Shown piece by piece: positions 8,100 through 20,760 of a DNA stretch of 64,000 nucleotides. The stretch is from positions 2,233,837-2,297,836 of the forward strand of contig NZ_JH976535.1 in NCBI RefSeq assembly GCF_000183545.2, written 5' to 3'. Both the position numbers and the translations under genes were made by a program. The notes under the pieces are model-generated. The model searched no databases, was not told where the DNA came from, and was given only the letters and a program-made list of their open reading frames with translations. How positions within the stretch are numbered: the stretch's first letter is position 1; each line of letters starts with the position of its first letter. This DNA comes from Thermaerobacter subterraneus DSM 13965 (GTDB taxonomy: Bacteria; Bacillota; Sulfobacillia; Thermaerobacterales; Thermaerobacteraceae).

Positions 8100-8166
8100 C
8101 CTTGCGGGAGCATGTGGGAATCGAACCCACCGGGGACGGTCTTTCCGCCCCCCACTGGTTTTGAAG
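8100..8166 (-). repeat. Left attachment site: displaced 3' part of tRNA-Sec
   Basis: This 67-bp copy is identical to 20662-20728. It carries only the 3' part of tRNA-Sec, from the anticodon loop (CTTCAAA) through the long variable arm, T arm and acceptor strand. With no 5' half it cannot make a tRNA. It marks the chromosomal sequence displaced by insertion. Confidence 0.93.
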
Positions 8167-8350: not shown

Positions 8351-8647
8351 TCAGCGAAGTCCACGGGGCACAGGGTTCGCCGGAACCTCCCCCTCGCGTG
8401 CCAGGAAGTCATAGAAGCTCCGCACCGCCGTGATGGTTTGCCGTCGGCTTTGGGGTTGGATTCCTTGAGCAACGAGCCAATCCCGAAACCGCTCCATGTC
8501 CTGATAGGACGCCTTCCGAAAGTCCACGCCCGCCTCCTCGCACCAGCGGGCGTAGCGGCCAAGCCACCAGCGGTACGCCTTTAGGGTGCTGGCGCTCCGG
8601 CCCTGTGCCTCCAGGCTCTTGAGAAAACGAAGGATTGCCGCTTCCAT
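8351..8647 (-). CDS. Stand-alone recombinase core-binding (SAM-like) domain, 98 aa
   Basis: The protein matches only the N-terminal SAM-like DNA-binding domain of XerC/D-type recombinases: FLKSLEAQGRSASTLKAY, then YARWCEEAGVDF, then RRQTITAVRSFYDFLAREG and a closing NPVPRGLR. In a full recombinase the catalytic domain would follow, but here the frame ends with TGA and another stop follows in frame a few codons later. ATG 8647 has an AGGAAGGG ribosome binding site. It is either a remnant of a second integrase or a small protein that competes for recombination sites. It lies next to the left att site and the paired arm repeats. Confidence 0.65.
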   Translation of the reverse strand: MEAAILRFLKSLEAQGRSASTLKAYRWWLGRYARWCEEAGVDFRKASYQDMERFRDWLVAQGIQPQSRRQTITAVRSFYDFLAREGEVPANPVPRGLR

Positions 8648-9466: not shown

Positions 9467-9910
9467 GTGCCCATTCGGGACATCCTTGAAGCCCTCGCAA
9501 ACCTCCCGGACCCCATCTCCCGCGCCGAACACCTTCTCCGGCATCTTCCGTTCCTACGGGACTACGTTGAATCCGTTGTTGAGCGGGTTGCCCGTTTATC
9601 CAAGGGGCGTGCTCCGTGGGAAGGTCCTGCGGGCCGGCGATCCGTTTACGGAGATCCCACGTTTGCTGCGGTTGCAACCCTAGAGGAACATGAACCCTAC
9701 CAATTTGCGCGGGCCGTGGTCCGGTTCGTAGACCGGCTACCGGAGGGTGTGAGGCAGATCGTCGACGACCTCTATGTCCACCGCACCCGTACGAGGGCCG
9801 ACCTCACCCCCGACGAGCTGAAACGGCTGTACGCTGTATTGCAGGACATATGGGACCTGATTGGACACGCAGCCCCTGTGCCCGTTGAAAGCGAGCGGGT
9901 CGCATCTTAA
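9467..9910 (+). CDS. Hypothetical element protein, 147 aa
   Basis: No family is recognised. The protein is soluble and mostly helical, with a Leu/Arg-rich N-terminal part (IRDILEALANLPDPIS, HLLRHLPFLRDYVESVV) and a C-terminal helix around ELKRLYAVLQDIWDLIG. GTG 9467 has GGGAGG about 9 nt upstream and a consensus promoter just before it. A strong Rho-independent terminator follows at 9992-10029, so it is a one-gene transcript. The large 948-aa gene comes next on the same strand. Confidence 0.65.
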   Translation: MPIRDILEALANLPDPISRAEHLLRHLPFLRDYVESVVERVARLSKGRAPWEGPAGRRSVYGDPTFAAVATLEEHEPYQFARAVVRFVDRLPEGVRQIVDDLYVHRTRTRADLTPDELKRLYAVLQDIWDLIGHAAPVPVESERVAS

Positions 9911-9991
9911 TTCCTCAACCGCCGCCCCACCCCAACCGCTTAGGACACGCCGGTTCAGGTTGGCACGACACTCCTCCTTCCCCCACCCCAC

Positions 9992-10029
9992 GGACCCGTG
10001 GTGCGCCCCGTGCGCCACGGGTCCTTTTT
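9992..10029 (+). terminator. Rho-independent terminator
   Basis: A perfect 10-bp stem GGACCCGTGG (9992-10001) with CCACGGGTCC (10015-10024) is followed directly by TTTTT. It ends the 147-aa gene transcript and insulates the downstream 948-aa gene. Confidence 0.88.
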
Positions 10030-10085
10030 GTTACCCGGCGTGGGCGGTTGGATCGCTGGTGGGCAAGCGGAAGGAGTGAAGTTCC

Positions 10086-12932
10086 GTGCCAACCCCTTCG
10101 GACGCCATCTTCGCGGCGTACTACCCCATTCTCTCCCAGACGAACATCCGTCGGGGCATGCGGGGGAGTCTTCTCGACGCCTACCGCCTTCCCACCCTTC
10201 AAGACATGCTGGCCCAACCCCAGCCCGAGCCGCGAAGTTTTGCCGAACAACAACTCAACACGATCCTCAACGCACAGGCCCGCCTGGCGTCGGTGGGCCA
10301 GCCCATCCCCGCCCCGGAGGAGAACCGGAGCGCCCTCGAAAGCCTCGTCAACCTTCTCGATTTCGACCGGCGGCTCCTTTTCAACGCCCTCGCCCAAATC
10401 CCGGGGCTGGAGAACGAACGATGGTTTCAGGCTCTCCGTGAGGGCGGCGGGAAGTTTCTCGAAGAACTCGGCGTCGAGAACCCCGTCCTCCGTTTCCTCG
10501 GCGGCACCGCCATCGACGTGCTGACCTCCCCGCTGTCGTACCTTTCCTTCGGCCTCGGCACGGTGGCCCGGGAAGGAGCACAGGCCCTTGCGCGGGAGGG
10601 GGTCGAACAGGCCGCCCGGCGATTCGTCGTTAACCTGCAAGTCCCCTTCACGGGGGCGGCCCGCACCATCGCCTCCGCCCCGGCGGAGCGGGTTGTCGGC
10701 GCGGTCGAACGGGCCGCCGCGCCCATCGTGGACCCTCTCCGGCCCCTCTTCTCGCGGGGCGGGGCGTCGGCCCGGCTTCCGGCTTCCATGCGGGAGGCGA
10801 TTCGTCAGGCCCAGCAGACCGTCTTCGAGACGAAGGCCGCACAAAGCGGCCTGACGACGCGGGAGATTCTCGAAGCCCGAAAGACGCTTCGGGAGATCGG
10901 CGCTCATCAAATGGACCCGTCCCTCCACCGGATTGCGTTCCTTGCCGGGGAGGGCGACGAGGAGGGGATTCAGGCCCTCGCCCAACTTCGGAAGACCGAC
11001 CCCGAGACCGCAGAGCGCGTCGAGAAGCTCTCGAAGTTCCTCCGCCAGCAGATGGACGCCCTGTACGACGCCGAACAGGCAACGGGGCTGACCTATCGCC
11101 GCAGGGAGAACTACCTGCCGCACCTCGTCGAACGGGATCAGGACGCGGCGGAGGAATACCTTCGCTCCCTCCAAACCTCCCTCGCCCAGCAGGCCCGTGC
11201 CCGCACCACCGAGTTCGCGGCGTTCCGGCTGGCGCGGTCGAAGAGTTACGCCCGGGAACTCGAAGAGGCGGGGTTCAACGTCATCTACGACCCCGAACGG
11301 ATCATCGCCATTCGGTCCTGGCAGTCGGCCCGGGCGCGGATGAACCACCTGCTGGCACAGCAACTCCGCTCGCTCGCCAAGAAGGCCGACGAGGCGGATG
11401 CAGCCTCCATCGTGCGGATTCCGGCCCGCGCCCCGAAGGGGAAGAAGCGCCCCAACCCCCCGAAGGGTTGGGTGCCGGCGGAAATGCTCATGGAGAACCT
11501 GATCGACCGGACGAAGAGCGGTCGGGTGAAGGCGCGGTATTTCCTTCACCCGGAACTCGCCCGGTCGATCACGACGCTCAACGACGCCCTCTCGAACCGC
11601 CGGGAAATCCAGGACCTCATCCGCACGGCGGAACTGGCGAACGGGCTGTTCAAGGGCATCGTCACCGCCACCCCCGGCAAGGTCTTCCGCGACTTTATCG
11701 GCAACACCTTCAACGCCGTCATCGCGGGTGTGCCGCCGCTCCGGTTCCTCTCGGGGTTCGTGGCGTCCCTGCGGTCCTGGACACCGGAAATGGCGGAGCA
11801 GGTGGCTGTGCAGGCCGGAGGCCGTGCGTATCGGTGGAAGGACCTGCACGATATCCTTTGGCGGCACAACCTCATCTCGACGGGCGAGACGGCGGAGATT
11901 GCAGGCCTTCTGCGGCCTGCCGCCGAAGCGACGAACTCCCTCCTCGAACGGGCGGCGGAGAAGATTCGCCGCCTCCCGCCGCACCGGGCCTCCGCCGCCG
12001 TCGACACGAACTCGAAGCTGGCCCTCCTTCGGGACCTCATCGCACAGGGCCTCGACCCCGACGCAGCGGCCCGGCGTGTGCGGCGTTATCTGTTCGACTA
12101 TACCGACATCACGCCAGCGGAGAAGCACATCTTTCGGAACTTCTTCTGGTTCTACACCTTCTGGCGGAAGGAGTTGCCGGTCCTTTTCGAGGGCATCTTC
12201 TCCCACCCCGAACTCTTTAAGGCGGGCGGGTATGCGAGCCGTGAAGCCCGGGAAGCGGCGGGCGTCTCGGAGGAGGAAGTGCCGGAGTGGGTCCGGCAGG
12301 ACCTCGGCCTCGTGTACCGGATCGGCGAGCGGTTCTACGCCGGTTCGCTCGGCTTCCCCGTCGACCCGCTGTCGGGCATCGAATCCCCCACCGAAGGGGC
12401 CGGCGACTTTCTCCAGTCCGTCGCCCGGTACGTCGGCGGGCAGATGACGCCCTTCCTCCGTGTGCCGATGGAACTGGCGGGGAACACCCAGTTCTTCAGC
12501 GGCTCCCCCATCCAGAGCCGCGAAGGGCAGGTCATTCCCCTCCAGGTTGGCCCCGTTCAGCGCCAGGTCGACCCCCGGCTCCTCTACCTCTTCGAGCAAC
12601 TCGTCCCGGTGGCGGGCCGGTCGCTGACCCGCACCTTCCGCCCGCAGGTCGAGGAGGTGACGGAACTCCCGCCGCGCCCCGAACAAAGCGCCCTCGAACA
12701 ACTCCTCCGGGGACTCTCCGGCATGAGTTCCTTCGCGTCACCATTCAACCCCGAACGCGAACTCGCCGTTGGCTCCATGCTCTACGCACGCCGCCTCCAG
12801 GACCAAATCACGAACCTCCGCCGGCAGGGTATGTACGTTCCAACGACGGAGGAGTTGGGTCTGACGGATCGGCCACGGGTCGGGGAACCACGCGCCTTGG
12901 AGGTACTGGCGGCCCTCCTCAACACACAGTAA
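10086..12932 (+). CDS. 948-aa phage-type large protein (polyvalent-protein-like)
   Basis: The largest gene of the element encodes a soluble, helix-rich protein with no signal peptide. The C-terminal part contains TPGKVFRDFIGNTFNAVIAG (residues about 518-537) and then FDYTDITPAEKHIF followed by FFWFYTFWRKELP (about 670-697). This arrangement resembles segments of phage large polyvalent or virion-associated proteins, in which an FDYxDLTPxE-x-PFYTWxRKNxP block is frequent (from memory, not a search). The N-terminal 400 residues are not recognised. The GTG at 10086 has AAGGAG 9 nt upstream. A role as an injected or virion-packaged protein is inference; it is odd in an element without recognisable capsid genes. 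Confidence 0.7.
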   Translation: MPTPSDAIFAAYYPILSQTNIRRGMRGSLLDAYRLPTLQDMLAQPQPEPRSFAEQQLNTILNAQARLASVGQPIPAPEENRSALESLVNLLDFDRRLLFNALAQIPGLENERWFQALREGGGKFLEELGVENPVLRFLGGTAIDVLTSPLSYLSFGLGTVAREGAQALAREGVEQAARRFVVNLQVPFTGAARTIASAPAERVVGAVERAAAPIVDPLRPLFSRGGASARLPASMREAIRQAQQTVFETKAAQSGLTTREILEARKTLREIGAHQMDPSLHRIAFLAGEGDEEGIQALAQLRKTDPETAERVEKLSKFLRQQMDALYDAEQATGLTYRRRENYLPHLVERDQDAAEEYLRSLQTSLAQQARARTTEFAAFRLARSKSYARELEEAGFNVIYDPERIIAIRSWQSARARMNHLLAQQLRSLAKKADEADAASIVRIPARAPKGKKRPNPPKGWVPAEMLMENLIDRTKSGRVKARYFLHPELARSITTLNDALSNRREIQDLIRTAELANGLFKGIVTATPGKVFRDFIGNTFNAVIAGVPPLRFLSGFVASLRSWTPEMAEQVAVQAGGRAYRWKDLHDILWRHNLISTGETAEIAGLLRPAAEATNSLLERAAEKIRRLPPHRASAAVDTNSKLALLRDLIAQGLDPDAAARRVRRYLFDYTDITPAEKHIFRNFFWFYTFWRKELPVLFEGIFSHPELFKAGGYASREAREAAGVSEEEVPEWVRQDLGLVYRIGERFYAGSLGFPVDPLSGIESPTEGAGDFLQSVARYVGGQMTPFLRVPMELAGNTQFFSGSPIQSREGQVIPLQVGPVQRQVDPRLLYLFEQLVPVAGRSLTRTFRPQVEEVTELPPRPEQSALEQLLRGLSGMSSFASPFNPERELAVGSMLYARRLQDQITNLRRQGMYVPTTEELGLTDRPRVGEPRALEVLAALLNTQ

Positions 12933-13613: not shown

Positions 13614-14072
13614 TTACCTTCCTGCCGCTCTCATACAGGCGTCGTACTCTCGAAACGCGATGTCTGCGAGAGTTTGGAGCATGGCAGGGCTTGGGAGGCC
13701 GTTCAGCCTCTCCACCGCCTCGGCCAGCGCTTTGCCGGGGTCCTTGCAGTTCGGCTTCGGGCGCTGTGCCACGGCCTTTTGCGTTTGTTCGAGGGCCGTC
13801 GTCATGTCGGTCGCCCACTTCTCGACGTTCTGTTCGAACGCAGCCTGCCGCTCCTGGATGGCCTGCTGTGCCGCCTGAAGTTCTTCGATCCGCTTGGCGA
13901 GTTCCGCTCTTTCCTTCTGCGTCTGTTCAAGCTGGGCTTCAAGTTCCTGCTGACGCTGCTCGAGGGCCTTCATTCGCTGCTCGAAAACCTGAACCTGGTT
14001 GGCCTGCTGTGCCTGTGCACCACAACCCGTAAGAAGCACCACCGTCAGAACCATCGGTACGAACGGTTTCAC
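13614..14072 (-). CDS. Coiled-coil lipoprotein, 152 aa
   Basis: A short signal peptide ends in the lipobox LLTGC (Cys at residue 17), so the mature protein should be lipid-anchored outside the membrane. Residues about 25-95 form a long Gln/Glu/Leu/Ala coiled coil (MKALEQRQQELEAQLEQTQK and onward). The C-terminal part is a compact helical region with two Cys (NCKDPG and YDACMRA). GTG 14072 is preceded by GGGGGTGG and fits the signal peptide better than the earlier ATG. It resembles phage spanin or lysis-accessory lipoproteins in design only; no function is proven. Confidence 0.7.
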   Translation of the reverse strand: MKPFVPMVLTVVLLTGCGAQAQQANQVQVFEQRMKALEQRQQELEAQLEQTQKERAELAKRIEELQAAQQAIQERQAAFEQNVEKWATDMTTALEQTQKAVAQRPKPNCKDPGKALAEAVERLNGLPSPAMLQTLADIAFREYDACMRAAGR

Positions 14073-14122
14073 GCTGTTCCACCCCCACAGGCACACGCGA
14101 GCATTGCGCTCTCTTACAGAGC

Positions 14123-14497
14123 TTACTGCGTACTCCTGCGGGGAACCGGGTCTTCCTGCTCCGTTCGCCCTTCCGCCCGTCGTTGCCGGTCGTTCAGGTA
14201 GTATGCCACGAGACCACCTCCGACCGCGTAAAGGAGCACCCCGCCGTAGTTCGGGCCGTATCGGCTAAGAACCTTAAGGCTTTCAAAGTTCTGACCGAAT
14301 AGCGATTCCTGCACAACAAACGGCCTCTCCCAAAGCCGCCGAACTCCAAAGGAAATCAACATCTTCTCGGTGTCCGGCGCGTGCGACCCGAACGCCAACC
14401 ACCCCAGGAGCACGAGGTACACGCCGTAGAGAAGCCATACGGGGCTTGCGGGCCGCCGTTGAAGCGTGACGTGCTCCTTTTCCGCCGTTGCAGCCAT
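14123..14497 (-). CDS. Small two-helix membrane protein, 124 aa
   Basis: Two membrane segments are visible: VWLLYGVYLVLLGWLAFG (about residues 20-37) and YGGVLLYAVGGGLVAYYL (about 82-99). A soluble loop of about 45 residues separates them, and the tail is basic to acidic. The family is not recognised. ATG 14497 has GGGGAGGG 7 nt upstream. It lies 50 bp upstream of the lipoprotein gene, and the two probably share a transcript. A holin-like or inner-membrane partner role for the lipoprotein is conceivable, but the loop is long for a holin. Confidence 0.65.
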   Translation of the reverse strand: MAATAEKEHVTLQRRPASPVWLLYGVYLVLLGWLAFGSHAPDTEKMLISFGVRRLWERPFVVQESLFGQNFESLKVLSRYGPNYGGVLLYAVGGGLVAYYLNDRQRRAEGRTEQEDPVPRRSTQ

Positions 14498-14639
14498 GTA
14501 CGGACCCTCCCCCGATCGGTGTCCGTGGACGGTGGTTCGTTTTTCCTCAAGCAAATCCTGCGGATGCAAACTTATACGATGTTGGTGAAATTTTATTCAT
14601 CCCCTTTTGTTTGCGGTTGTTGTCGTTGGGAGGTTCCCC

Positions 14640-15043: not shown

Positions 15044-15139
15044 CTATCGAGTTGCCAGCATCACCAGGAGGACCAGGCACGCGGCGAGAAGGTCGCTGTG
15101 GATGAGGAGCCAGGTCACGAACCGGGGCGAAGGGGTCAT
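15044..15139 (-). CDS. 31-aa hydrophobic peptide B
   Basis: The peptide starts MTPSPRF and has one membrane helix (SDLLAACLVLLVMLA), ending in Arg. Its ATG overlaps the TGA of the PrimPol-helicase gene as ATGA, so translation is probably coupled; GAGGGGG also lies 10 nt upstream. It is a paralogue of peptide A, identical in length and at 16 of 31 positions. The pattern is that of a single-pass membrane peptide; a toxin, lysis or membrane-targeting role is open. Confidence 0.7.
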   Translation of the reverse strand: MTPSPRFVTWLLIHSDLLAACLVLLVMLATR

Positions 15140-17685
15140 GCGGTTTCGGCCCCCTCATAATCGTCCCACTCGATGCGATCATCGTCCTCGTCCTCGGTAT
15201 CTTGCCGGGCACCAGCGGACTGAAGCTGGTAGAACTCGCTGCGAGGCAAGTTCCGCATAGGTTCTCCCAAAGGCTGTGGGGACAGTGGGGACAGTTGGGG
15301 ACCCTTATCAGAAAACTTTGGCTCGACCCTCTTTATAGGGGAATTTTTCGAGGAAGTGTCCCCACTATCCCCACCCTCCCCACCTCCGTCATTGTCCACG
15401 AGTTTTTGCGCTTGTGCCTTTTCGGCGTTCGCCAACAGCCCGATGCCCAAACGATACTTCAGCCCTTGAATTTTCTTGGTAGGGAAGCCCTTCTCGTTTA
15501 GCCGTTCACCGAACTCGGTCAGGCTCACGGGTCGCTCACCCACGTCTTCGCACCACTTCAGGTAGGCTTTATACAGGTCGGTGGCATTGACACGGGTATT
15601 CGGGTGTGGGACACACGCCGCCTCGATGAATTGGGCGATTACGTCCTGCTCCTCGCGGTACTGGTTCGTGGCCTCCATCACTTCTGGCGGTGCGTCCAAA
15701 CCCCTATCCAGCCATTTCAGACACCCCTGAACAGCCCATGCGAGGATGCCCTGTAGCTCCTGACACAGTTTCGAAGACAGGTCCCTGTCGCGCTCTCCCT
15801 CCGGAATGGTGACGGTGAAAGGAATCAGTCGGAGGCGTCGCCATATAGCGTAGTCCGTACCACGCACGCGGGGCTTATGGTTAGCCGCCAACCAGAGTTT
15901 CATGGCTGGGCGGAACTCAAAGTATTCCCGGTAGAGGAACCGGGCCGTGATGGTGTCGCCTCCAGTTAGTTGTTTGATGACAACCTCTGACCAGCGTCTT
16001 CCCTCCTCGGCCTCCGCAGCCGATACAAACCGCTTTCCGACCAGCCTGGCGAGATCATTGCGCACACGTTCGGTATCACGAGCGAGGAACGTACTGAATT
16101 CCGCCTGCTGACCGTAGTCGCCGAACAAACTCCTCAACACTTCGAGGAACGTGCTCTTTCCGTTCGCACCTGTGCCGTACAACAGGAACAACACCTGTTC
16201 GCTTGTGTCGCCGGTTAGGGTGTATCCCACGGCTCGTTGCAAGAACTCGATCAGGCGCTGGTTCCCGTTCATGATCCGATGGAGGAATTTCTCCCACAGC
16301 GGAGCCTTGGCGTCGGGATCGTATTCAACGGGAACCAGCTTCGTAATGAGGTCATCCCGCCTGTGCGGGCGCAACTCTCCAGACCGAAGGTCGATGGTTC
16401 CGTTCAGGCAGTTGAGAAGCCACGGATCACGGTCCAACTGCGATGGTTTCACGGGAATGCCGGGTTCTGTTTGGGCCAGTTCCACCATGTGCTTCAGCTT
16501 GGACGCAGATTCGGAGTTCAAAGCCCATTGGACGAGCTTCTTGCGCTTATCCTCGTCCGCGATCTGCGCGGCTTCCTGGTACATGGACTGCACCGTCTCT
16601 TTCGCCCGACGCATGACCTCGCCCGTTTTGTCCACAACCCAACGGCGTCCATCGTAGACCAGCCACTTTTCCAACTCAGGGCAGTAGCGCAGGTTCTTAC
16701 CGTGCCTTCGGACAAGGCGTTTTGCATTACCCAAATCCGTAAAGTGCTCCATGGCCGGCTGTGCACTTGCAACGGATTGGTCCATGTTCGTCCACTCCGC
16801 ACCCTTTGAGGCCGGCGACCGAAACTCGGATCGCATCTTCGCGATTTGGTACTCGACGTACTTGTGCTGTTGTTCGGGGGCCTTCTCCCGAATCTTCTCC
16901 GAAATAAGGTGCTCGGGGTTCATCAGCACCGCCGCCACCGTCGCGTCGTCGCACCCGGCCCGAATGAGGTCGCCGATGACCCGCCAGATCGCCTCCGACC
17001 GCGCCCCCTTCGGCGCACCGAACCGGATTAACTCCCGCGTCTCGATGGACAGGGGAATCCGGGAGATATCCACGTCGGGCAGGTGGTCCCAGTCGATGTT
17101 GACGTCTTGGACTTTCTGCTCGCTGGCCGCCCGGATGATTTCGGCAATCCAGTCGGGAACTTCAGGGTGGACCACTTCGATTCCCCTGGACCAGCGGTAT
17201 TCCTTACCCGATCTGTGACGGCTTGGCGGGGCCACCACGTAGCCCCGCAGCCGAATTTCCCACCCTCGTTCTTTCCGTAGGTCGATGGCCGCCTTCGGAA
17301 TGGGCAGGTCGTTCCGGCGGAAGTAGATATGCTTGCCCCGGCCCGTGCTTACGTAGTCTTCATACAGGTCGAAGCGCTGGCGGTCTTCAGGCGGAACCGC
17401 GTCAGGGTCGTCAATGTCCACAACGATCAGCCCGGATTCTTCGAGCCGAATGCCGATATTCGCCTTCGGGTACTCCGACCAAAACCGTTCCGCCTCGGCC
17501 TCTTGCCCTGGCCTGAACAGCGTGCTACCTTTAATGGGGGCTTTACCGATATGGCGGGGATCGGCGGAGCAGGTGGGGTGACCTGCTCCGCACCCACCGT
17601 CAGTTGGCCAGCATAAGGGGACGATGGTCCACCCCCTCTTGAGGTACCGCACCGCCTCGGTTCCGTTGGTCGCAACCACAGTCAC
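15136..17685 (-). CDS. PrimPol / D5-like SF3 helicase replication protein, 849 aa
   Basis: This is the element's replication initiator. Residues about 1-190 form a bifunctional primase-polymerase domain, with the acidic pair in IVVDIDD (D90, D92) and the later His in GRGKHIYF (about 115-122). A helical linker and D5-N-type region follow. The superfamily 3 helicase has Walker A GTGANGKST (504-512), Walker B-like FVSAAEAEEG (553-562), a sensor LWLAANHKP (597-605) and the arginine-rich IWRRLRLIPF. The C-terminus has a winged-helix-like TDLYKAYLKWCEDVG region and an acidic tail. GTG 17685 follows AGGAGGAGTG. Such fusions are usual in phage satellites and plasmid-like elements. The stop overlaps peptide B. 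Confidence 0.92.
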   Translation of the reverse strand: MTVVATNGTEAVRYLKRGWTIVPLCWPTDGGCGAGHPTCSADPRHIGKAPIKGSTLFRPGQEAEAERFWSEYPKANIGIRLEESGLIVVDIDDPDAVPPEDRQRFDLYEDYVSTGRGKHIYFRRNDLPIPKAAIDLRKERGWEIRLRGYVVAPPSRHRSGKEYRWSRGIEVVHPEVPDWIAEIIRAASEQKVQDVNIDWDHLPDVDISRIPLSIETRELIRFGAPKGARSEAIWRVIGDLIRAGCDDATVAAVLMNPEHLISEKIREKAPEQQHKYVEYQIAKMRSEFRSPASKGAEWTNMDQSVASAQPAMEHFTDLGNAKRLVRRHGKNLRYCPELEKWLVYDGRRWVVDKTGEVMRRAKETVQSMYQEAAQIADEDKRKKLVQWALNSESASKLKHMVELAQTEPGIPVKPSQLDRDPWLLNCLNGTIDLRSGELRPHRRDDLITKLVPVEYDPDAKAPLWEKFLHRIMNGNQRLIEFLQRAVGYTLTGDTSEQVLFLLYGTGANGKSTFLEVLRSLFGDYGQQAEFSTFLARDTERVRNDLARLVGKRFVSAAEAEEGRRWSEVVIKQLTGGDTITARFLYREYFEFRPAMKLWLAANHKPRVRGTDYAIWRRLRLIPFTVTIPEGERDRDLSSKLCQELQGILAWAVQGCLKWLDRGLDAPPEVMEATNQYREEQDVIAQFIEAACVPHPNTRVNATDLYKAYLKWCEDVGERPVSLTEFGERLNEKGFPTKKIQGLKYRLGIGLLANAEKAQAQKLVDNDGGGEGGDSGDTSSKNSPIKRVEPKFSDKGPQLSPLSPQPLGEPMRNLPRSEFYQLQSAGARQDTEDEDDDRIEWDDYEGAETA

Positions 17686-17987: not shown

Positions 17988-18209
17988 TTAATGGTCACGG
18001 TATGCGCTGCGCCACTCAACGTACCGCCGCTCAAGTTCTTCCGCGTCCCAACCCAGGGACTCCAGAACCTTGAGCATTGCCTGCGGGGGTTTCTTCGGAT
18101 ATCCCCGCAGGGCGTGCGCTACGGCGGCGTAAGAGAGGCCAGCTCGGAGCGAAAGGGCGGCTCGGGTCAGGCCGGCCTTGCGAACCGCCTCTACAAGCGG
18201 GTTCTCCAT
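17988..18209 (-). CDS. XRE-type helix-turn-helix regulator, 73 aa
   Basis: The sequence TRAALSLRAGLSYAAVAHAL (about residues 15-34) is a clear helix-turn-helix of the XRE/Cro type. It is followed by PPQAMLKVLESLGWDAEEL, the usual fourth and fifth helices. The protein is little more than the DNA-binding domain. It is transcribed from a consensus promoter at 18249-18277 and leads the replication operon, so it probably controls that operon or the divergent genes. ATG 18209 follows AAAGGGGG. Confidence 0.85.
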   Translation of the reverse strand: MENPLVEAVRKAGLTRAALSLRAGLSYAAVAHALRGYPKKPPQAMLKVLESLGWDAEELERRYVEWRSAYRDH

Positions 18210-18342: not shown

Positions 18343-18570
18343 TCACACACGCGCAATCGGCGAATTCCTTTCCTCTGGAACCCCTTTGAGGAACAACGTC
18401 AGGGCGTCGCGAGGAACGCGAACGCGGCGCCCAATTCGAACCGCCGGAATCTCGCCCCGGTGTGCCATCTCGTAAGCCCGACTCACGCCAACCCGCAGCA
18501 CCTTGGCCGCTTCGGGCACGGTGAGCAGGAGCGGCAGGTCTTCGATGCTCCGCACTGTCGTGCCCTGCAT
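18343..18570 (-). CDS. Excisionase-family (MerR-like/HTH_17) DNA-binding protein, 75 aa
   Basis: The core LTVPEAAKVLRVGVSRAYEM, then HRGEIPAVRIGRRVRVPRDA, is the winged-HTH of the excisionase/AlpA family. Such proteins bind att arms and bias integrase toward excision, or act as transcription activators. The length of 75 aa is typical. ATG 18570 has AAAGGAGGGG upstream. It is divergent from the zinc-finger/integrase pair, with a 118-bp region between them carrying three GCGTAAC repeats. A probable -10 (TATAAC) lies on the minus strand near 18608-18613. Confidence 0.85.
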   Translation of the reverse strand: MQGTTVRSIEDLPLLLTVPEAAKVLRVGVSRAYEMAHRGEIPAVRIGRRVRVPRDALTLFLKGVPEERNSPIARV

Positions 18571-18671: not shown

Positions 18672-18688
18672 GGGGGAGGGAGTTGGTC

Positions 18689-19417
18689 GTGTTGATTCTC
18701 GGTATTGTCCCGGTCCAGCGGGTCCGTCCGCAGGGAGGCCGCTTGGTTCCGGCAGGCACATGGGAAGACCTCACGGAGCTCAGGAACCCGCACAGTCACC
18801 TAGAAGAGCGCATAGCGCAGGGGGAAGAACCTCCGTATGTTCAGTTCGCGTCCCTAAACGAGGAGGACCCAGAGGCTCTAGCCGACTTTGTGAGCCGGGA
18901 AGGCTGGCTGGGGACTGATGAGATTGACGCTATTGCCCATGAGATCCGTAAGATGAGGGCTGTCCTCCAGGTCGTGGAGGCCCTTCGGACCGAACCTGCC
19001 GATGCCCAACAACTCCTTGAAGCATGTCGCATGTTGGAAGCAGTTTGGGGAGAGAAAGGGCACCCCGTGGAGGAAGACATCGAGAGCCTGCAGGCCCATG
19101 CGCGGTACCTTCTCAGCAAGGCGCTAACTCGGCAGCTTGAGCACGTACAGGTAGAGGTCGCCATCGTGGATTTTGGAGAGCGTCTAGAACTAGCCTTGCA
19201 CATCGATGACTTGCTTGCCAGCATGTACCTCGAATTGGCTCGTGACATACTGGAAACTGATGACGTTCCCCGCAAGTGTCAGAATCGAACCTGCCGCAAC
19301 TGGTTTCTGACTCATCGTTCGGACCGTCGCTACTGCTCGCCGCGCTGTGCTTCAGCAGACAGAATGCGGCGCTGGCGGAACGCCCACAGAAATCAGGAAG
19401 GAGAGGGAACCTCGTGA
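18689..19417 (+). CDS. CGNR-like zinc-finger protein, 242 aa
   Basis: The N-terminal part is helical and unrecognised. The C-terminus has the treble-clef-type pattern RKCQNRTCRNWFLTHRSDRR followed by YCSPRCASADRMRRWR, with four Cys arranged C-x4-C and C-x3-C. This is similar to the CGNR zinc-finger proteins thought to be DNA-binding regulators. GTG 18689 is preferred because GGGGGAGG lies about 9 nt upstream; TTG 18683 is too close to it. Its stop overlaps the integrase start (GTGA), so the two are cotranscribed and translationally coupled. It may regulate integration. Confidence 0.75.
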   Translation: MLILGIVPVQRVRPQGGRLVPAGTWEDLTELRNPHSHLEERIAQGEEPPYVQFASLNEEDPEALADFVSREGWLGTDEIDAIAHEIRKMRAVLQVVEALRTEPADAQQLLEACRMLEAVWGEKGHPVEEDIESLQAHARYLLSKALTRQLEHVQVEVAIVDFGERLELALHIDDLLASMYLELARDILETDDVPRKCQNRTCRNWFLTHRSDRRYCSPRCASADRMRRWRNAHRNQEGEGTS

Positions 19418-20565
19418 GGGGGCACATCCGAAAGCGGGGAAACAAGTGGGCCGTCGTGATTTACCTGGGCAGGGATGAAGCGACGGGGAAGAAGCAGTAC
19501 CGCTGGCACGGCGGCTTCAAGACCAAAGCCGATGCCGAGCGGGAACTAGCCCGCCTGGTCAACGACGCCCACACGGGCGCGTATGTGGAGCCCGAAAAGA
19601 TGTCGGTCGCGGAGTACCTTCGGTTCTGGCTCGGAGACATCCGGTCCCGTGTGGCCCCTACCACGTTTCACCGCTATGAAATCATCGTGGAACGGCACCT
19701 AATTCCGGCCCTTGGCAAGTACCAGCTTCAGAAACTCCGTCCCGCCCACATTCAGGCGTACTACAGGGATGCCCTGGAGAACGGGCGCAGGGACGGCAAG
19801 GGCGGCCTCTCCAAGCGCACCGTGCTTCACCATCACCGCGTGCTTCACGAGGCCCTGGAACACGCTGTCCAGCTTCAGATGTTGGCCCGGAACCCTGCTG
19901 ACGCCGTCAAGCCCCCACGGCCCGAGCGCAAGGAAATGCGGGTTCTGGACAAGGACGAGATCGAACGGCTCCTCGAAACAGCACGCCGGAGCCGGTACTA
20001 CATCCCGATCCTGCTTGCCATTGCCACGGGGATGCGCCGGGGCGAGATTCTTGCCCTCCGGTGGGAGGACGTGGACCTGGAGGGCGGGCGGATCAGCGTC
20101 CGGCAGACCCTCGTTAAGACGGGCGACGGACTTCAATTCACCGACCCGAAGACCGACCGGAGCCGCCGCGTGATTCGGATCGGCCCACTCGTTGTGCAAG
20201 CCCTCCGCCGCCATCGAGCGCAGCAGGCCCAGGAGAAGCTTCGCTTAGGCCCCGCCTACCAGGATCATGGCCTCGTGTGCGCTCAAGCCAACGGGAAGCC
20301 CTACGATCCCGCCGAGTTCTCGAAGGCGTTTACCAGCCTGGCGAAGCGGGCGGGCTTCCCTGACCTCCGGTTCCACGACCTGCGCCATAGTCATGCGACG
20401 CTTCTCCTGCGGGACGGGACGCCCATCAAGGCGGTCGCGGAAAGGCTCGGCCATGCGTCCGCCGCCTTCACCCTCGACACCTACGGGCATTCCCTTCCCG
20501 ACATGCAGGAAGCCGCCGCCCGCGTGGTCGATGCCCTCCTGAGTGCCCCGGCGGAAAACCCGTAA
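19414..20565 (+). CDS. int: Tyrosine recombinase / phage integrase, 383 aa
   Basis: This enzyme catalyses insertion and excision at tRNA-Sec. Residues about 1-50 form the arm-binding AP2-like domain (HIRKRGNKWAVVIYLGRD), about 60-170 the core-binding SAM-like domain and about 175-375 the catalytic domain. All catalytic residues are visible: Arg208 in TGMRRGEIL, Lys246, His321 and Arg324 in HDLRHSHAT, His347 in LGHAS, and the nucleophile Tyr357 in TLDTYGHS. GTG 19414 overlaps the stop of the zinc-finger gene and has AAGGAGAGGG upstream. It ends 96 bp before the right att core, as usual for tRNA-targeting elements. Confidence 0.96.
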   Translation: MRGHIRKRGNKWAVVIYLGRDEATGKKQYRWHGGFKTKADAERELARLVNDAHTGAYVEPEKMSVAEYLRFWLGDIRSRVAPTTFHRYEIIVERHLIPALGKYQLQKLRPAHIQAYYRDALENGRRDGKGGLSKRTVLHHHRVLHEALEHAVQLQMLARNPADAVKPPRPERKEMRVLDKDEIERLLETARRSRYYIPILLAIATGMRRGEILALRWEDVDLEGGRISVRQTLVKTGDGLQFTDPKTDRSRRVIRIGPLVVQALRRHRAQQAQEKLRLGPAYQDHGLVCAQANGKPYDPAEFSKAFTSLAKRAGFPDLRFHDLRHSHATLLLRDGTPIKAVAERLGHASAAFTLDTYGHSLPDMQEAAARVVDALLSAPAENP

Positions 20566-20661: not shown

Positions 20662-20728
20662 CCTTGCGGGAGCATGTGGGAATCGAACCCACCGGGGACG
20701 GTCTTTCCGCCCCCCACTGGTTTTGAAG
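20662..20728 (-). repeat. Right attachment site within the intact tRNA-Sec gene
   Basis: This is the 67-bp copy identical to 8100-8166. Here it is joined to the tRNA 5' part, so the element has restored a complete tRNA gene with its own 3' sequence. Confidence 0.93.
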
Positions 20729-20760
20729 ACCAGGGGCGACACCAGTCACCAGCTGCTCCC
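20667..20760 (-). tRNA. selC: tRNA-Sec (anticodon UCA)
   Basis: Read on the minus strand, the gene begins GGGAGCAGC and ends ATGCTCCCG. The anticodon arm is CTGGT-CTTCAAA-ACCAG, giving anticodon UCA. The long extra arm (about 20 nt around GGGCGG...CCGTCCC) and the T arm GTGGG-TTCGATT-CCCAC are characteristic of selenocysteine tRNA, as is the 94-nt length. CCA is not encoded after the discriminator G. It reads UGA as selenocysteine with SelA, SelB and SelD, none of which is in this window. The 3' 62 nt are contributed by the integrated element. Confidence 0.93.

Follow-up and report, generated by a model that had tools for sequence, protein, structure and literature searches.

The phage satellites known so far redirect packaging, reduce the size of the capsid, or come with a complete capsid of their own. 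To our knowledge, P4, the PICIs, PLE and the PICMIs have not been described as carriers of ejection proteins. No report of satellites with ejection proteins was found in the open-access subset of the literature that was searched, and ejection or injection is nowhere mentioned in a 2024 review of hitcher elements. Satellites that bring part of the particle are represented by the capsid-forming PICIs and by MulchRoom and MiniFlayer of Streptomyces (PMC10690885). Short-tailed phages carry ejection proteins inside the virion and require them for infectivity (PMC8954989).

The 64,000-nucleotide stretch of DNA analysed here (the window) contains an integrated element that encodes a 948-residue relative of such proteins. 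It is probable, at roughly 0.6, that the element is an integrative phage satellite with its own version of an ejection protein, which would be supplied to the particle of a helper.

An integrated element in the tRNA-Sec gene

The element is bounded by a perfect direct repeat of 67 bp (8100-8166 and 20662-20728; no strand is assigned to either copy) and has a length of 12,562 bp. Its GC content is 0.62, versus 0.74 outside. All 67 bp of the left att copy are identical to a stretch of the tRNA-Sec gene together with its edge, and the right copy lies within the tRNA-Sec gene itself (20666..20760, minus strand; ARAGORN; Rfam RF01852, 82.8 bits), which serves as the integration site and remains intact despite the insertion. 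In the congener G002, both flanks are contiguous across a single att copy with 92% identity, representing the empty site. The site of a second congener, G003, looks empty too, because the left flank is positioned within about 0.2 kb of the tRNA. A third congener, G001, has the same tRNA-Sec gene occupied by a different insert of about 10.4 kb, indicating that the site is an integration hot spot. The insert of G001 (L187 1761-12270) encodes a 1008-residue protein with what looks like an S-layer-type secreted start, together with transposase-like open reading frames. The repeat, the GC contrast, the integrase at the right repeat, and the empty site in G002 show that the element is real.

The tyrosine integrase adjoins the right att copy (19414..20565, plus strand; Pfam Phage_integrase, 6e-29), with its start set by the ribosome-binding site. 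The product of the open reading frame just 5' of it (18683-19417, plus strand) has in its C-terminal part a zinc-finger-like CxxC...CxxRC segment that looks CGNR-like by eye, and only weak NinG-type matches. A stand-alone protein of about 98 residues at the left end of the element (8351-8647, minus strand) looks by eye like a tyrosine recombinase reduced to its N-terminal core-binding part, with no catalytic part. A Prim-Pol/D5 primase-helicase (15136..17685, minus strand; Pfam D5_N 2e-40 and Prim-Pol 3e-22, PHROG primase 7e-154) is, judged from its domains, the replication protein of the element. The remaining genes on the minus strand encode a small HTH-like DNA-binding protein, recognised by eye (17988..18209; phmmer to a phage regulator-like open reading frame, E 7e-4); an excisionase-like HTH protein (18343..18570; blastp 40%, E 3e-4, to an open reading frame of the element in genome G083); a small membrane protein (14123..14569) common to the element in genome G482 (blastp 34% over 104 residues, E 1e-6); and a coiled-coil lipoprotein-like protein that is weakly spanin-like (13614..14096; PHROG Rz-like spanin, E 3e-5), a match that is probably a coiled-coil effect.

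Searches of the element with Pfam, PHROGs, and terminase, portal and capsid queries yielded no terminase, portal, capsid, or tail gene, and neither a small terminase nor a second internal protein was detected. The claim that the element has no recognised capsid genes thus held when tested, and the gene of the 948-residue protein is its sole phage-structural gene. The satellite status of the element is well supported: it has its own integrase, att repeats, an empty site elsewhere, a replication protein of its own, and no terminase, portal or capsid gene. A helper was looked for in the same genome with PF03354, PF03237 and phrog_156, none of which gave a match. Elsewhere in the genus the 948-residue family was not found again; G001 encodes its own terminase but lacks the family.

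Homology of the 948-residue protein to virion proteins of short-tailed phages

The open reading frame of 948 codons is exactly where the original prediction placed it (10086-12932, plus strand), starts with GTG, and is preceded by a good ribosome-binding site, GGAAGGAG. It takes up 22.7% of the element, in agreement with the predicted share of over one fifth. The length of the frame is no proof of a gene, because the surroundings have a GC content of about 70-74% and the opposite strand is also open, for 928 residues (9915-12701). The antisense frame was rejected as a gene, since the GC content at its codon positions mirrors the pattern in the 948-codon frame, as expected of a shadow frame. 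It is the homology to phage proteins that establishes the gene as real and settles the coding strand. Directly 5' of it, with a good ribosome-binding site, is a gene for a protein of about 147 residues (9467..9910, plus strand), for which the family search gave no significant match. It is possible, as a guess, that its product is a late regulator.

Single-sequence profile searches of Pfam and PHROGs, pattern scans, and a sequence search of the PDB gave no matches to the 948-residue protein. A tblastn search identified one weak phage relative, present in two records (MW202622 and MW202658), with 28% identity over residues 640-814. Further phage relatives were fetched by the motif FDYRDLTPFER...PFYTWTRKN, which was used for fetching only; their homology was then tested on the actual sequences by hhalign. 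The relatives obtained in this way are from Cellulosimicrobium DS1, podovirus ctEqG8, Paenibacillus API480 (gp16), Microbacterium Shocker (gp37), Pf-WMP3, Pf-WMP4, and ct52p938. An alignment of eight phage proteins, from which the window protein was excluded, matches residues 486-813 with a probability of 98.8 and an E-value of 9.5e-17. The two motifs singled out by the original prediction were both located, FDYTDITPAE at residues 670-679 (nucleotides 12093-12122) and FYTFWRKELP at residues 689-698 (nucleotides 12150-12179). They form a block (12093..12179, plus strand) that corresponds to the phage consensus FDYxDLxxFER...PFYTWTRKN. The motif PFYTWxRKN alone occurs in at least 120 IMG/VR contigs, and each of the 80 motif-bearing loci that were fetched from IMG/VR matches the domain profile with an E-value below 1e-25.

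In the phages, which are short-tailed and have genomes of about 40-46 kb, the matching part is near the C-terminus of a giant gene that closes the virion cluster and is commonly followed at once by the lysis genes. Among the named phages, no large virion gene comes after the relative, which either adjoins the lysis genes or ends the virion cluster. This position, that of a large last gene of the virion cluster, is the place of an ejection (internal virion) protein, and in Pf-WMP3 the neighbour of the relative's gene is annotated as an internal protein. It is secure that residues 486-813 are homologous to the C-terminal part of this large last gene in short-tailed phages. The window protein shares with these ejection proteins, and with those of the prophages of Paenibacillus pectinilyticus and Cohnella nanjingensis, the C-terminal domain with its conserved motifs and the size class of the gene. 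It differs from them in that its gene sits without other virion genes and its N-terminal half (residues 1-485), for which no homology was detected, is unrelated by sequence. The protein is phage-type, and is probably packaged or injected. The earlier suggestion that it recalls packaged or injected proteins of big phages stands as to the phage-type character and the large polyvalent class, but not as to "big", given the genome sizes of the relatives.

The structure predicted from the single sequence of the window protein has a pLDDT of 39.7. AlphaFold2 with 45 sequences gave a model of residues 455-948 with a pLDDT of 78.6 and a pTM of 0.75. The conserved C-terminal domain (residues 486-813; 11541..12524, plus strand), delimited from hhalign, the alignment of 45 sequences, the AlphaFold2 model, and matches in BFVD, may be LPD38-like by fold. 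The best viral structure matches (Foldseek against BFVD; probability 1.00) are named "large polyvalent protein associated domain", and include proteins of Shocker and Anabaena phage A-4L. One of the matches is an LPD38-named podovirus protein (probability 1.00, E 6.9e-4, 622 columns), but with an rmsd of 18.5. LPD38 has been described only from phage-type polyvalent proteins (PMC5512222). The proposed relation to large polyvalent protein domains agrees with these fold matches to proteins so named, one of them LPD38. The window protein has no match to the Pfam model of LPD38 (PF18857), and 2 of the 45 family members match it weakly, with a best E-value of 0.031. Foldseek gave no significant match to PDB structures, although a family missing from the match list is not thereby excluded. 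The ejectosome protein gp15 of T7 (PDB 7k5c and 6yt5) is likewise mostly helical, and is an internal virion protein, as the window protein may be. It appears only with a weak structural score (Z 4.4 over 77 residues), which is not significant, and it has no sequence similarity to the window protein. Matches to an ordinary enzyme, a portal or a capsid protein had been named as grounds for abandoning the original prediction; no significant PDB match, and no enzyme or capsid match in Pfam or PHROGs, was found.

The names of the fold matches raise the alternative that packaging and injection of the protein chiefly serve some activity inside the newly infected cell, such as counter-defence, rather than DNA passage. 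However, neither Pfam nor PHROGs contain an enzymatic domain that matches the 948-residue protein, several of its phage relatives have none above the cut-off, and the most conserved part of the protein is the C-terminal domain itself. Unlike polyvalent proteins as defined by Iyer et al. 2017, with at least two domains of disparate activity per chain, and unlike LPD38 proteins, the window protein showed no fused enzymatic domains in Pfam or PHROGs. We consider such an effector role very improbable.

Related elements in other bacteria

Profiles of the domain were searched in about 1,050 genomes. The domain was found in phages, prophages, and three further chromosomal elements with clean repeats, in genomes G083, G482, and G512, which were first matched by profiles built without them (8e-16 in one search, 6.5e-61 and 1.2e-34 in another). 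The G083 element is 17,015 bp long, has a 39-bp repeat, and encodes a relative of 964 residues, with an upstream gene of 717 codons. The G482 element, of 19,286 bp, is positioned in a tRNA-Leu gene with a repeat that agrees in 76 of 77 bases; its relative has 1056 residues and the upstream gene product 668. The G512 element, of 16,569 bp, has a 45-bp repeat in a tRNA-Arg gene and an upstream gene for 734 residues. The gene of the G512 relative spans the ends of a circular record where 26 bases repeat, and may therefore not be intact. Each of the three elements has an integrase and a primase/helicase. In three of the four elements, a large gene is positioned just 5' of the relative of the 948-residue protein, at the place that a second putative internal protein occupies in phages; homology of the upstream gene to that phage gene was shown for G083 and G482. 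A 518-residue open reading frame at the left end of the G512 element (L046 9589-11145, minus strand) is transposase-like by eye and has no PHROG match.

The terminase, portal and capsid queries detected TerL and/or portal in six of six positive controls, which were phage genomes or prophages (G173, G438, two phage contigs of G091, Paenibacillus pectinilyticus, and Cohnella nanjingensis). The same queries gave no match in the four elements. The predicted capsid-less, satellite-like setting is therefore upheld, and other such elements carry a relative too. The Paenibacillus and Cohnella matches were ruled out as satellites, being ordinary prophages with TerL and portal genes. The contigs of G060, G423, and G479 are too short and were left unclassified; that of G060 carries an integrase and relatives of both large genes. 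All of the elements were found through the family of the 948-residue protein, and the presence of the gene in them is therefore not independent evidence.

The G482 element has additional phage-type genes. A 121-residue protein has a relative encoded immediately ahead of TerL in phages (46% over 68 residues) and, by position only, is a putative small terminase. A further product is related to the C-terminus of the protein encoded before the portal (51% over 126 residues). This gene (L037 15913-17001, minus strand) looks like a fusion, because its C-terminus shares about 50% identity with phages G173 and G438, whereas closer to the N-terminus a short segment resembles a different phage gene product, the second internal protein of G438 (58% over 45 residues). 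The element also contains a sigma-factor-like gene (L037 14682-15563, minus strand; PHROG, 1.6e-31), a candidate late-gene switch. Phages, prophages, and the G482 element repeatedly have, close to the ejection gene, a small secreted protein with an "ILVNG"-type segment (L037 11458-12240, minus strand; L039+L040 21257-22009; L017 2943-3695; L019 10747-11556; L222+L223 15922-16455; L224+L225 14433-14972; Paenibacillus and Cohnella cases by eye).

In the tree, the G482 protein groups with those of prophage G173 and phage contig G438 with support of 99-100, apart from the other elements; other deep placements are weakly supported, and monophyly of the element-borne proteins was not found. Since the G482 protein groups with phages and not with the other elements, it is likely, though only likely, that elements captured the ejection gene from phages on more than one occasion. 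Mismatches between the G482 gene and its prophage relative amount to 0.44, 0.34, and 0.70 at the three codon positions, indicating purifying selection, and the branches of the G482 protein and its prophage relative are of about equal length.

These comparisons bear on the alternative of a reduced prophage, in which a short-tailed temperate phage at tRNA-Sec lost its head and tail genes and the 948-codon gene was left over. The protein is plainly phage-derived, the window element is phage-structural in this gene only, and a degenerate case is known: in genome G261, the homologue is broken into two shortened pieces beside an integrase. Decay, however, predicts broken genes and varied leftovers, yet four separate elements have the same reduced gene set and clean att repeats, three of them with intact reading frames, and at least three intact genes of 950-1060 codons occur in separate lineages. 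The purifying selection on the G482 copy also argues against decay, and the gene order of that element would need several separate deletions, not one internal deletion of a prophage. We therefore regard a reduced prophage as unlikely.

The same gene sets bear on a role in interference or exclusion, in which a decoy ejection protein would poison the particles of a helper or an invader, or block the entry of DNA at the envelope. Satellites commonly hamper their helpers (general knowledge; PMC11389934), the 948-residue protein has diverged from its phage relatives to 25% identity or less over the domain, and in the window element it is not accompanied by a second internal protein. Against this, three of the four elements retain the two-gene set and the full length, as a working ejection module would, and G482 carries packaging-type homologues as well. 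A decoy function appears improbable, and more so than prophage reduction.

A proposed satellite mechanism and its relation to known satellites

We favour the reading of the element as a satellite that provides an ejection protein, in the following sequence of steps. The element inserts into tRNA-Sec by its own integrase, as indicated by the att repeats and the empty site, and would replicate by the primase-helicase that it encodes. It may depend on a short-tailed helper phage. When the helper grows in the cell, the satellite would make the 948-residue protein late. The protein may then enter the procapsid built by the helper through its conserved C-terminal domain, and would there replace or accompany the version of the helper. 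In the next infection, the protein would aid the passage of DNA across the cell envelope. With its own ejection protein, the particle would be fitted to the host of the satellite, and the infectivity of helper genomes may fall.

Separate elements of the same build occur in at least three other bacteria, which points to a mode of riding on phages that has not been reported. The odds appear about even that they represent an undescribed, convergent class, in which satellites supply the ejection protein or proteins and the helper supplies the shell, injection is by the apparatus of the satellite, and the gene was captured repeatedly. The domain beside an integrase and a primase, with no TerL or portal gene, provides a searchable signature for satellites in phyla without known ones.

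The elements share with P4, PICI, PLE, and PICMI satellites an integrase, a tRNA att site, their own primase-helicase, a length of 12-19 kb, and the lack of capsid genes. The trait of PICIs, a small terminase or other redirector of packaging, was not detected in the window element; G482 has the relative of the phage gene before TerL. Capsid-forming PICIs and MulchRoom and MiniFlayer bring a capsid, a portal, and a terminase, of which the window element has none of its own, whereas elements of the window type would bring only internal proteins and no shell gene. If this is true, bringing an ejection protein alone is a different lever, namely control of the entry of a stolen particle into the next cell, and could explain both the fitting of a borrowed particle to the host of the satellite and the weakening of the helper.
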